This document shows, piece after piece, positions 8,913 to 57,866 of a stretch of DNA of 64,000 nt. The notes under the pieces were generated by a model. That model ran no database searches, was not told where the DNA came from, and saw only the letters and a program-made list of their open reading frames with translations. This stretch comes from Hydra vulgaris. Its lineage: Eukaryota > Cnidaria > Hydrozoa > Anthoathecata > Hydridae. Within the stretch, counting starts at the first letter, position 1. Every line of letters starts with the position of its first letter. The stretch lies in NCBI RefSeq assembly GCF_038396675.1, contig NC_088922.1, positions 19,128,501 through 19,192,500 on the forward strand, written 5' to 3'. Position numbers and translations under genes: made by a program.

Positions 8913-10380
<1,468 letters not shown>

Positions 10381-20915: not shown

Positions 20916-20938
20916 GCCGTCTATCAAAAAAATTGTGA

Positions 20939-21573
20939 GTTCCACTACTCGCTGTACATTTATTTTGCAAGTTCCACTACTCGCTGTACATTTATTTTGC
21001 AAGTTCCACTACTCGCTGTACATTTATTTTGCAAGTTCCACTACTCGCTGTACATTTATTTTGCAAGTTCCACTACTCGCTGTACATTTATTTTGCAAGT
21101 TCCACTACTTGCTGTACATTTATTTTGCAAGTTTTACTATTCGCTGTACATTTATTTTGCAAGTTCCACTACTCGCTGTACATTTATTTTGCAAGTTCCA
21201 CTACTCGCTGTACATTTATTTTGCAAGTTCCACTACTCGCTGTACATTTATTTTGCAAGTTCCTCTACTCGCTGTACATTTATTTTGCAAGTTCCACTAC
21301 TCGCTGTACATTTATTTTGCAAGTTCCACTACTCGCTGTACATTTATTTTGCAAGTTCCACTACTCGCTGTACATTTATTTTGCAAATTCCACTACTCGC
21401 TGTACATTTATTTTGCAAGTTCCACTACTCGCTGTACATTTATTTTGCAAGTTCTACTAATTGATATATATTTATTTTGCAGGTTCCACTACTCGCTGTA
21501 CATTTATTTTGCAAGTTCTACTAATTGATATATATTTATTTTGCAGGTTCCACTACTCGAGGTACATTTATTT
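20939..21573. repeat. 32-bp minisatellite, about 20 copies
   Basis: The unit starts GTTCCACTACTCGCTGTACA and continues TTTATTTTGCAA. Most copies are identical. Two near the right end (about 21451 and 21515) are a diverged variant with CTAATTGATATATA, alternating with normal units, so a 64-bp dimer was duplicated. Because 32 is not a multiple of 3, all three frames stay open for long stretches. Those frames are by-products and not genes. Confidence 0.97.
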
Positions 21574-21700
21574 TGGATGCTCCGCTTGTTGAAAATTCGG
21601 AATGCTCAAAATATGAAATTGATATGACCCAGATTAGCAATATTTAACCAATTTATGTCTTGCATTCATACTTTGCTAACATACAATTAATATGCTCACA

Positions 21701-46320: not shown

Positions 46321-47517
46321 ACGTGCGTGAAAGTATCCTAAACTTGTACATGATTTTAAACTCTTGAGTTTCCGAAGTTATTATGTTTACCACGTAATTA
46401 GTAAAATTAAAAAAAATATATTAACTTTTACTCATTATATTTGTTATTAACTATTAACATTTATATGTTGTTGTAGTTCTTTTTCTTCTATTGTCTTAAG
46501 GAATATTTTAATGTTTAAATATCTTTGCAATATCTTTGCAAAATATCAAAAATCAATAGGTCAATTTATAACAACACCAAAACAAAGAGCTCACTTAAAA
46601 ATAGTATTCAAGAACTTTCAATTTTTCAGGTCTATAAATTAAAGCTAAAGTTAATGGTTCCATAATATATCACAATTATTTTATCTTAAATTATACCACA
46701 TAAAACTTTAAGGTGGTACTTACCTGAAAAAATTATTTCATAAAATATTTGTTCTTAGTAATGCCTTTTAGATAAATAGGGGAGAGTAACATAAAAAAGA
46801 ACCCCTTTTCAAAAAATGATAAAATCAACTGGCTGTAAATAACCGAAAATTAAAAACAAAGTTTTTTTTCAGAAAATTCAATCTATGTTCTACAATTTAA
46901 CATCAGAAAATTAAAGGTGTAAATCTGCCTTACGTTAAGAAACAACCATTGAACAAAGAAATGGTAGGAGCCCATTTTACCGTGGAAGTAGCCTAAAATG
47001 GGCCCCTGAATTTAATTTCTGATTAAAACATAACTTTTAATCAAAAGTTGACTATAAATAATTTGTAGATAATGTAAAATCTTCTTTTCATTATTCACAT
47101 TAAAAGTTGACACTCTGAGTAAAGAAAAATTGACATTAACTTCAATTATAGTCAAATTAAAAAAAAATTAAACAAAATTTTAAAAATAGTACTTTCAAAT
47201 ATTTTTTTTGTCAAAATTTAACAATGAAGAAAACTATTCTTCAGATGGTTGTCATAAACGTTTATGTGCAGCTGCACAATATTCTACAGTAAAATTTATA
47301 ATAATTGTCTAAGGAAAGTCCAAGCAAAAGATTTTATAGAGGGCCAACTCACCTTAGGGTCCCATTTTAGACCACCTTCCCTTAATTACAAAAACATAAT
47401 GACAAAAGAAATAAAAACAAAAAAAATAATTATGTTTAAAAATATTTGTGGTAATACCCTAATTATGCAGGTCCTTTGTTCCAAGATATTTTTTCGTTGC
47501 AAATAGATAATTATATC
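46321..47517. other. AT-rich, no gene supported
   Basis: No recognisable gene or repeat. An 80-codon plus frame at 47264-47506 matches nothing. Confidence 0.4.
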
Positions 47518-52790: not shown

Positions 52791-53035
52791 TATAGAGAAA
52801 AAATTATTTCAAATATATTGTCAAATAAATGACGATAATTAGTTTGTTAATATTTTAAACGCATTATGCAAGATTATATAAAAATTATAAACGAAGATAA
52901 AAATTGAAAAAAAAAGGTGTAAAACTTATCGTAAATAAAATATGCGTATTTATTATGCAGAGACAGTAAAAATAATTGTAAATATTTATTATTTTGTAAT
53001 TAAAAAAAAGAAAAAAAAGACATCTACTTATAAAA

Positions 53036-54120
53036 ATGGGACGCGGAAAGCATTGTAGTGCAGAAAAACGACAACTGATCCAAAAGTTGATATCAGCAGG
53101 GAAATCTTATAGAGAAGTTGGTCGTTTAGTTGAGTGTTCCAATAAAATGATAGGAAATGCCATAAAATTTCTAGAAAAGCCTGAAACACGTGGTCGAAAA
53201 CGTTCTATTTCAACATTGCTGACCAATCGCTTAGTCCAACAGGCTAAAAAGGAACCTTTTAAAACAGCTACCGAGCTGAAAAAGGACTTTAACATCGATG
53301 CAACAGTACAAACAGTTCGGAGTTGTCTGCTAGTTAATGGATTAAAAGTCTGTAGCCCCAGAAAAGTTCCACTTCTAAGTGCCAGACATGTTGTAAAGCG
53401 TATTGCGTTTGCTAAAAAATACTCAAATTAGCCACTCGAAAAATGAAGGAATGTTTTATGGACAGACGAAAGTAAGATTGTGCTTTATGGCGGAAAAAGC
53501 TCTCGGGCATATGTCAGAAGACCGCCGAATGCAGAATACAATCCAAAATATACCATCAAAACTATTAAACATGGAGGTTGTAGTATGATGATATGAGCAT
53601 GCTTTTCTTATTACGGAGTAGGGCCCATTCATCCCATTACTACTATTATGGACCAACACGTTTATGTTGATATATTAGATAAAGTGATGTTGCCGTATGC
53701 AGACTATAAAATGCCGTTGTCCTGGGTGTTCCGACCGGACAATGACCCAAAGCACACTAGCAAGAAGGCGAAGAATTGGTTTGAGGAGCATAAAGTGAAC
53801 GTTATGGAGTGGCCAGCACAGTCGCCAGATCTTAACCCAATCGAGAATTTGTGGGCTGACGTAAAGGAGGTGGTTGCTGCTGGCAAATCCACGACGAAGG
53901 AGTCACTTTATAACGTAGTTAAGGAGACGTGGAGCGAAATTCCGCTTAAGCGATGTCAGGACTTTTATTTATTATTTATTTATTTTCGTCATTAAAAAAA
54001 ATAAGCTTTTACAATGTTTTTACAACACAAAAATATAACATTAAAGTTTCGACTTGGTTAACTCGATGCCAAGACGTTGTGTAGCCGTCATTGCCAATAA
54101 AGGTCACGCAACAAAATATT
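53036..54120 (+). pseudogene. Tc1-type transposase (DD34E), frameshifted and interrupted
   Basis: Starts MGRGKHCSAEKRQ at 53036. An N-terminal helix-turn-helix (YREVGRLVECSNKMI), a GRKR linker and a second helix-turn-helix are followed by a frameshift near 53425. The catalytic core has D in WTDESK (53465), D in FRPDNDPKHTS (53738) and E in NPIENLW (53843). There are 34 residues between the last two, the Tc1 spacing. A TGA replaces a tryptophan-type codon near 53598. The C-terminus is split by an 86-nt LINE tail at 53965-54050 and resumes with NSMPRRCVAVIANKGHATKY before a stop at about 54120. It excises and inserts Tc1 elements at TA sites. This copy is dead. Confidence 0.85.
53965..54050 (-). 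mobile_element. 86-nt LINE 3' tail inserted in the transposase gene (tail 5)
   Basis: The insert is flanked by a 5-bp target duplication GACTT (53960-53964 and 54051-54055). On the minus strand it reads AACTTTAATGTTATATTTTT, GTAAAAACATTGTAAAAGCT, ATGACGAAAATAAATAAATA, the same end as tail 2 at 11.4 kb. Removing insert plus one GACTT (91 nt) restores the transposase reading frame. Confidence 0.85.
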
Positions 54121-55734: not shown

Positions 55735-56225
55735 ATGCCCATTGGATGTACAAACAATCAAATAAAAAATCCAGATCTCAAGTTTCACATTTTACTGAAA
55801 AAAACCAAATTGTCGTAAACTTTGGCTTAAAGCAATTAGTCGTACTGCTTTAGACAAAGATGGGACTATTATCAAGAACAAACTTTGGTCACCGAAAGCA
55901 AAGTATCATTACATTTGTTCTGAACATTTCATTTCTGGTAATTTATTTTCTTATGACAAAAATTGTGAACTACTCCAGGTAGCTTTAAAAAATATAATTT
56001 CATTTTAATGTAATGTTTGTTTTACAGGCCAAAAGAAAAACTTTATTTTAGCCAACTATGCATCTGCTAAAAGACAGCTTCATTTGCCATCAAGTCAAAT
56101 TGAAAACGCTAATGAAATAATACACATCGATTTTTGTGACAAGGCAGAATGTTCTGCTATGATAGAGCAAAACTGTTTTTCCCTAGTCTCATCAAGCACT
56201 GCCATGATATTTATATGTATATATA
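55735..56225 (+). pseudogene. THAP-domain protein relic with one intron
   Basis: Exon 1 (55735-55978) begins MPIGCTNNQIKNPDLKFHIL. After a frameshift in an A run near 55800 it reads CRKLWLKAISRTALD, then LWSPKAKYHYICSEHFISG. This is the THAP zinc-finger pattern: C, FH, W..AI.R, ICSEHF. THAP domains bind DNA and are common in P-element-derived and host regulators. The first zinc cysteine is missing. An intron (55979-56028, GTAGCT to TTACAG) leads to a second exon with KRQLHLPSSQIENANEIIHI and DFCDKAECSAMIEQN. The Tc1-like element at 56226 cuts it off. A P-element or host origin cannot be told apart here. Confidence 0.6.
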
Positions 56226-56519
56226 CAGTATTGGACAAAACATTTGCAACCAACATCGAACAATACTAAAAAGTGTTCCTAATTTTACATGTCTTAAAAA
56301 CGAAATGAACTATACTACCACAGCAAACAGTTCAGGAGTCTGGAGTCATAGCATGCCATGACATGAACAATCAGCTGACAGGTGACAACACACAGGAAGA
56401 ATTTCGTTGACAAGTGCCATTTTGCAGCGGAAAAAACAAGTGCAACTTTTTTGGTTCGTTTCATTTTCTTAAGTCTGGTCCATGTCAACGTCACGGAAGT
56501 TTTTTAATAATTAAAGGAA

Positions 56520-56705
56520 GTATTCAGAAGTTTCCAGAAGTATGCAGAAGCTTCCAGAAGTTTCCAGAAGAAGCATCTGGAAGCATCCAGTAGCATCCAG
56601 AAATATCCAGAAACATCCAGAAATATCCAGAAACATTCAGAAGCATCCAGACGCATCCTGACACTTCCAGAAGCATCATAAAGAAGCATCTAGAATCTTC
56701 CAGAA
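56520..56705. promoter_or_regulatory. Heat-shock-element-like array, left repeat
   Basis: GAAnnTTC units alternate at exact 5-bp steps. At 56547-56569 five units run in a row (GAA, TTC, GAA, TTC, GAA). At 56527-56539 there are three. Looser CCAGAAGCAT-type copies, period 10-12 bp, continue to 56705. Three or more contiguous inverted nGAAn units is the known HSF-binding consensus. Function here is inferred. Confidence 0.55.
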
Positions 56706-57029
56706 CAGGTTCACACAGTTTCATTTTACTATATAAGAGACATGTAAATTGACATGTAATTCTGTCAGTATATGGAAGTCAATCAGTCAGTATTATCAAG
56801 ACAGTTTATCGAAGTGAGTTTTATCAAAGTGTTTTATCGAAGAACATCAATACAAGAAGTGAAATACAATAAGTGTTTCATTACATCAATACAGTCCACA
56901 TCCAACCAAGACATTGTTTTCCACAGAGCATCATTGTATCATCACAAGGTAAATGTAACGCGGTAAGCCTTGAGAAGCGTGATTATTTATTTTTATTATT
57001 TTTATGACTTCAAGTGCAACTTCTCAACT

Positions 57030-57200
57030 TCTCGATTATTTCTCGACGCCCTGGAAAGAAACCGCTGATTTTACTAAAAAACCAGAAAAAAAGACTCCTG
57101 TTTGCTACATCTCATATTGACTGGAATGTGCAAAAAATGGCGAACTGTCCTGTTCAGTGATGAATCGAAGTTCAACATCATTGGGAGCGATGGCATTTGC
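57030..57200 (+). pseudogene. Tc1 transposase fragment
   Basis: Reads RRPGKKPLILLKNQKKRLLF, ATSHIDWNVQ, then, after a shift, KWRTVLFSDESKFNIIGSDG and ICRV. The DESKF block contains the first catalytic aspartate of Tc1 transposases. The rest of the protein is deleted. Confidence 0.7.
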
Positions 57201-57225
57201 CGTGTACGTTGCTTCTTTTCAATGC

Positions 57226-57352
57226 TTCTGGAAGCTTCTGGATGCGTCAGGATGCTTCTGAATGTTTCTGGATATTTTTGGATGCTTCCATATGCTTCTT
57301 CTGGAAACTTCTGGAAGCTTCTGCATGCTTCTGGAAACTTCTTGAAACTTCG
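57226..57352. promoter_or_regulatory. Heat-shock-element-like array, right repeat
   Basis: The reverse-complement counterpart of the left array. Five contiguous units occur at 57299-57321 and again at 57329-57351 (TTC, GAA, TTC, GAA, TTC at 5-bp steps). Three occur at 57226-57238. Confidence 0.55.
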
Positions 57353-57652
57353 GGATACTTCCTTTAATTATTAAAAAACTTCCGTGACGTCGACACGGAC
57401 CAGACTTAAGAAAATGAAACAAACCAAAAAAGTTGCACTTGTTTTGTCCGCTGCAAAATGGCACTTGTCAACGAAATTCTGCCTGTGTGCTGTCACCTGT
57501 CAGCTGATTGCTCATGTCATGGCATGCTATGACTCCAGATTCCTGAACTGTTTGCTGTGGTAGTATAGTTCGTTTCGTTTTGAAGACATGTAAAATAAGG
57601 AACACTTTTTAGCATTGTTCGATGTTGGTTGCAAATGTTTTGTCCAATACTG

Positions 57653-57866
<214 letters not shown>

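Follow-up and report, generated by a model that had tools for sequence, protein, structure and literature searches.

A phased heat-shock-element array as a candidate promoter part in an abundant Tc1-type transposon of Hydra vulgaris

In a 64,000-nucleotide stretch of the Hydra vulgaris genome (hereafter the window; NC_088922.1, positions 19,128,501 to 19,192,500), a Tc1-like element carries GAA and TTC units that alternate at 5-bp spacing, as in heat-shock elements (HSEs). What are such arrays doing inside a DNA transposon? The initial annotation had reported these phased runs, three of them of five units, and the positions proved correct to the base. Six runs within the element reach three units or more. 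In 2000 dinucleotide shuffles of its sequence the mean was 0.046 such runs, five-unit runs never arose, and the reversed string gave none, which agrees with the earlier claim of an HSE match beyond chance. The arrays also form a 10-bp tandem repeat, so the shuffles exaggerate the surprise. Elsewhere in the 64 kb there are two further runs of this minimum length, at 10216–10233 and 46607–46619; the former is an isolated four-unit HSE (TTCAAGAACATTCAAGAA). The parts of the window copy are as follows, the ordinary element being described below.

56226–57652, forward strand: fold-back, non-autonomous copy of a Tc1-type element, with TA at 56224–56225 and 57653–57654
56233–56250, forward strand: outer direct repeat of the left end (GGACAAAACATTTGCAAC), of transposase-site type; putative binding site by analogy
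56429–56446, forward strand: inner direct repeat, 196 bp from the outer one, with one substitution in the window copy
56517–56705, forward strand: promoter array (candidate) of ~10-bp units GAAGnWTCCA, with perfect HSE runs at 56527–56539 (three units), 56547–56569 (five units) and 56693–56705 (three units)
56728–56739, forward strand: TATA box (ACTATATAAGAG), 22 bp past the last HSE run
56756–56956, forward strand: putative start site and 5' leader, predicted from the sequence
56943, forward strand: possible splice donor CACAAG/GTAAATG inside the leader, likewise predicted
57039–57207, forward strand: remnant of the transposase frame, equivalent to positions ~1092–1269 of the ordinary element
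57210–57652, reverse strand: right arm, i.e. positions 1–433/443 of the ordinary element inverted (left end plus array, without the TATA box)
57222–57361, reverse strand: second array, on the inverted copy, with runs at 57226–57238 (three units), 57299–57321 (five units) and 57329–57351 (five units)

We searched the genome (911,502,276 bases in 15 contigs) for the ends of the element, as the initial annotation had proposed. A 56-mer of the left end occurs at 2041 sites with at most three mismatches, and its control at none. From 40 scored left-end matches among 413 first-look candidates, we fetched 39 copies, the fortieth being the window copy; this sample leans toward young copies. Three of them (L042 to L044) have an identical array and are seemingly one copy duplicated. 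They were counted as three for runs, direct repeats, TA flanks, lengths and TATA distances, and as one for the composition of the array units and the majority sequence. Another copy (L027), represented by only ~353 bp of left end with no TATA box, was omitted from the alignment, which left 38 rows.

Ordinary copies are ~2.0 kb long: a right end was recognised in 27, of which 24 measure 1901–2050 bp and the other three 1304, 1584 and 2249 bp. Their order is ~300 bp of left end, the array, the TATA box, a leader with the possible splice donor, the transposase frame and the right end. The right end resembles the left at the tip and at a second site but has no array. The long open frame of one copy (L041) matches the Pfam families HTH_Tnp_Tc3_2 (7.4e-18) and DDE_3 (2.1e-13), with a D to E spacing of 34. 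Two forward direct repeats are found at the left end in 39/39 copies. At the right end, the pair lies 195–197 bp apart in 22/27 copies, is spaced otherwise in four, and in one the inner repeat was not found. Binding of transposase at such direct repeats is extrapolated from IR/DR Tc1 elements. TA flanks the left end in 39/39 copies and the right end in 25 of the 27 in which it was recognised, a test weakened by the location of many copies inside TA repeats and by a right-end search pattern that itself ended in TA. Judged by these sequence features, the ordinary element is a DD34E member of the Tc1 family of Tc1/mariner, IR/DR subgroup, with putative binding sites in its direct repeats, and the Tc1-like identity first proposed for the window copy stands. 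Helitrons encode a Rep-helicase and create no target duplication; a Helitron identity is ruled out by the DDE transposase and the TA flanks.

The surroundings of the copies are often (TA)n, with at least seven TA in the 20-nt flanks on 26/39 left and 19/27 right sides, and a TA repeat of ~250 bp flanks the window copy on its right. The three copies with an identical array lie on contig 3, where three further matches are found ~330 kb away at equal spacings, as if a stretch of at least 330 kb were present three times, really or by an effect of assembly.

The ordinary copy has a single array, located between the inner transposase direct repeat and the TATA box. Runs of at least three units are present in 38/39 copies, of at least four in 33/39 and of at least five in 28/39. 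The GAA/TTC register is thus kept in other copies, which had been set beforehand as a test of the regulatory interpretation. One copy (L021) has lost its array almost wholly, and no TATA match was found in two of the 39 (L027 and L034), whose runs were counted by position. In 30/39 copies the distance from the end of a three-unit run to the TATA match downstream is 21 bp. A 56-mer linking the final HSE run with the TATA box occurs at 2008 sites genome-wide, with none for the control, which is about as many sites as there are left ends. At least three contiguous inverted nGAAn units with a TATA box close by, as expected of a promoter controlled by heat-shock factor (HSF), are therefore the common state of the element. 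We consider it probable from this arrangement that the array is the upstream part of an HSF-type promoter driving the transposase gene of an abundant Hydra Tc1-type transposon.

Alternatively, the array might be a neutral 10-bp minisatellite that contains GAAnnTTC by chance, the TATA box alone driving the transposase and HSF having no role. It does have a 10-bp period, and its length differs among copies by steps of ~10 bp, that is unit by unit. The composition of the units also speaks for a plain minisatellite. Among 473 units from 36 copies, the TTC half-site begins with A 337 times and with T only 128 times, while the CA of the spacer is well conserved. Information per position points neither way, with 1.54–1.71 bits for GAA, 1.03–1.20 bits for TTC and 0.57–1.33 bits for the spacer. 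As most units are of the ATC form, the perfect five-unit core of the majority sequence is flanked by GAAnnATCnnGAA stretches. Furthermore, a comparable 10-bp minisatellite of the TTCTGGAAAA type, with perfect HSE units, lies within an unrelated reading frame at another locus (L054, around 740–810).

Several observations make the minisatellite explanation unlikely, in our judgement. A random 10-mer tandem unit would be an HSE unit with a probability of about 0.003 (about 0.3%). Six-unit HSEs gave 144 matches genome-wide, overlapping matches inside one array being counted separately, whereas the same pattern read backwards, of unchanged composition, palindromy and 10-bp phase, gave 2. In the 39 copies the runs are restricted to the array ahead of the TATA box; the rest of the 2050 bp examined in each copy has none. 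The initial annotation had asked whether the array was just a simple repeat without phased units: the 10-bp repeat is present, yet so are the phased units.

The promoters of the host's own heat-shock genes bear on the same question. Perfect three-unit HSEs occur in one of ten hsp70 upstream regions (seven distinct). The broader form GAAnn(A/T)TCnnGAA is found in six of the seven distinct regions, once each, 327–371 bp before the HSP70 match; five of these sites are ATC and one is perfect. None of 2000 shuffle sets reached six of seven (mean 0.14), for a pattern that was defined after inspection of the hsp70 sequences and for genes that are related to one another. The best four-unit HSE scores of the ten regions were reached by 0, 2, 68, 67, 12, 13, 15, 1, 72 and 100 of 100 shuffles; most regions taken singly are thus unremarkable. 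The small-HSP upstream regions contain neither the perfect three-unit HSE nor the (A/T)TC form (0/16), which favours the minisatellite, in regions defined as the 651 bp upstream of the first HSP20 match, so that promoters may be missed. The picture for host hsp control is therefore mixed overall. Nevertheless, the recurrence of the ATC form upstream of hsp70 genes counts against a neutral minisatellite: host heat-shock genes may use this form themselves. The genome has three loci with near-complete HSF DNA-binding domains containing SF(V/L)RQLNLYGF, which we take to be the recognition helix of that domain. Six of the hsp70 genes form inverted pairs (L062/L063, L064/L065 and L067/L068) with identical upstream regions of 955–960 bp.

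A second family with an HSE array weighs most in favour of a promoter. We fetched 14 six-unit sites that are not of the GAAG type, taken among the matches listed of the 144. Eight belong to one family, here called family 2, one (L057) is weakly similar to it, and five (L051 to L055) are something else. The members of family 2 (L048–L050, L056, L058–L061 and L072–L091) are dispersed, which suggests a transposon; their frame begins with MASRGCLHP, and Pfam gave no match in the two family-2 pieces searched. Copies were then picked independently of the array, with the stretch downstream of it as the query: the search yielded 186 candidates, of which 40 were scored, and the 20 best-scored after the query itself were fetched. 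Every one of the 20 has at least three units in a row within the array, and an exact GTATAAA occurs in 18. In their majority sequence, 14 consecutive units, 13 of them perfect (40/42 core bases), are separated by mixed spacers; the array stops shortly before GTATAAAAG, and the start codon lies downstream. A 44-mer spanning HSE and TATA box occurs at 41 sites genome-wide (control, 0). The matches between the Tc1-type element, which we call family 1, and family 2 are all short and weak (best E 0.001); some fall at the HSEs.

Nothing argues more strongly for the array as part of a promoter, rather than a stray minisatellite, than the equal arrangement in two families, in family 2 with mixed spacers. 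We read the arrays of both families as candidate heat-shock-factor promoters. That two unrelated Hydra families independently hold hsp-type promoters before their enzyme or main genes, HSF being a recurrent driver of transposition, is a wider proposal that we make tentatively and with some doubt.

The family-2 arrays show decay after insertion and no sign of selection. Letters off the majority make up 57/775 of the core (7.4%) and 76/517 of the spacer positions (14.7%; p 3e-05). However, when the core is compared with non-CpG spacer positions (39/411, 9.5%), p is 0.22, or 0.38 without the one imperfect unit. Since this difference is not significant, we claim no purifying selection on the family-2 cores. 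A selection result obtained with eight copies (p 0.0006) was set aside, because those copies had been chosen for perfect HSEs and were hence biased.

The array might also serve transposition, as a set of extra sites for the transposase or for a bending protein, since it lies close to the left end and its phase of 10 bp is about one helical turn. This is very improbable. The direct repeats of transposase-site type are separate from the array and unlike it, and the array is one-sided and internal to the inner repeat, the ordinary right end having none; array units as transposase sites were rejected, the direct repeats being distinct.

There remains the two-armed form of the window copy, with arrays in both inverted repeats, which the initial annotation gave as a feature of the element. 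The inverted arms, 56218–56570 and 57308–57660, are 94% complementary. Along the ordinary element, the window copy runs through positions 1 to ~770 and ~1092–1269 and then, inverted, from 433/443 back to 1, with a short filler at the deletion. Ordinary copies have one array and the internal junction of the window copy occurs once in the genome (at most three mismatches), which rules out that the element normally has such arms as its terminal repeats. Given this unique junction and the origin of the inverted arm, the two-armed layout is an accident of one rearranged copy. In their first 300 bp the arms have 8 and 4 private substitutions, none in common, so the right arm probably derives from another copy, or the rearrangement is old. 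It is hardly credible that the two-armed form is a functional design, with its inverted HSE arrays in the role of a hairpin source or mobile heat enhancer: the five-unit runs in both arms and the intact ends with TA on each side would fit it, but the unshared arm differences, and a junction that is single in a search of this junction only, resemble one chance product.

If the array is indeed an HSF-type promoter, HSF trimers activated by stress would bind its phased nGAAn units, the TATA box would then fire, and transposase would be produced as a stress burst, to act on copies bearing the terminal repeats. Heat or another stress may thus turn on the transposon. Of the steps in this scheme we consider HSF binding the likeliest, heat induction the next and mobility the least likely. 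The deletion upstream of the frame remnant has removed the start codon and the N-terminal region of the transposase from the window copy, which would therefore depend on a foreign enzyme; it can at most be mobile via transposase supplied elsewhere. It could also lend heat control to its neighbours.

Stress activation of transposons is a long-standing idea, and we know of few cases in which the sites of a host stress factor lie within a transposase promoter. To these the Hydra element would add a cut-and-paste Tc1 case with about 2000 closely similar copies. If both arrays work as proposed, heat or proteotoxic stress would activate about 2000 Tc1-type loci together with at least dozens of family-2 loci, possibly in stem cells that feed the germ line. 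Hydra is a laboratory animal in which heat shock and transgenesis are feasible. With ~2000 copies in so tractable an animal, one can test directly how stress, transposase expression and genome growth are linked.

By analogy, the closest precedent would be the HSF-1-driven Helitrons of C. elegans, a parallel already drawn in the initial annotation and borne out by the literature. For Helitron1_CE, the relevant part of PMC6927752 reports HSF-1 binding and cites, from the same group's earlier work, an HSF-1-dependent heat induction of transposase mRNA. As described there, Helitron1_CE and other Caenorhabditis Helitrons resemble the Hydra element in being DNA transposons with HSEs in the promoter of their own enzyme gene. 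They are rolling-circle, Rep-helicase elements of nematodes, whereas the Hydra element is a cut-and-paste DD34E Tc1 transposon of a cnidarian, with a candidate HSF promoter. DIRS-1 of Dictyostelium is a transposable element with a heat-shock promoter within its inverted terminal repeats (Zuker et al. 1984, cited in PMC2685390), comparable to the candidate promoter arrays in the arms of the window copy. DIRS-1 is a retrotransposon whose promoter belongs to its normal terminal repeats; the two-armed Hydra form is accidental. ONSEN of Arabidopsis is heat-activated and renders nearby genes heat-responsive, as a passage of PMC6927752 relates; unlike the Hydra Tc1 element, it is a plant retrotransposon of the Copia type. 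For Cryptococcus, a section of PMC12810828 links mobility at 37 degrees with putative HSEs that lie in LTRs. Transposon-related genes and HSEs are both mentioned for Nematostella in portions of PMC13104882, which do not join the two in that animal.

Promoters of Tc1/mariner transposase genes have been described as 'blurry' for Bari1, Bari3, Sleeping Beauty and Hsmar1: they are AT-rich, have weak core motifs and work in distant hosts, according to the account in PMC6446368. The Hydra array would likewise belong to a promoter of this gene class, but, unlike those of that account, with a clear TATA box and a factor-type array. It would contrast with the view of Tc1/mariner promoters as weak and promiscuous given in the same account (PMC6446368). 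In Hydra AEP, TcMar-Tc1 is among 14 putatively active TE families and shows expression in specific cell populations; for the putatively active families, expression includes at least the interstitial stem cells, as stated in part of PMC12220107. This is the superfamily of the present element, treated as a whole in that part of the paper, and a word search of its main text gave no occurrence of 'HSF'. Among the matches listed in the open-licence literature, no title dealt with HSEs in Hydra transposons or with a Tc1/mariner transposase gene that has an HSE promoter.

Lastly, the initial annotation had the element inserted in a THAP gene. The insertion indeed adjoins an exon of the THAP type:

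55737–56215, forward strand: decayed THAP-domain exon beside the insertion (Pfam THAP, E 8e-05, 23.8 bits against a cut-off of 23.9)

The reading frame of this exon is broken and its score falls below the Pfam cut-off, so that a working THAP gene placed under heat control by the insertion finds no support at this locus. Relatives of the exon occur at other places in the genome: 28 candidates gave 34 matches, with the exon itself counted. Another Tc1-like transposase, with HTH_Tnp_Tc3_2 and DDE_3 domains, is located at 53000–53995 of the window and has no HSE run of at least three units near it. Farther upstream, at 20938–21575, the window contains a 32-bp tandem repeat in 20 copies with 93% matches.
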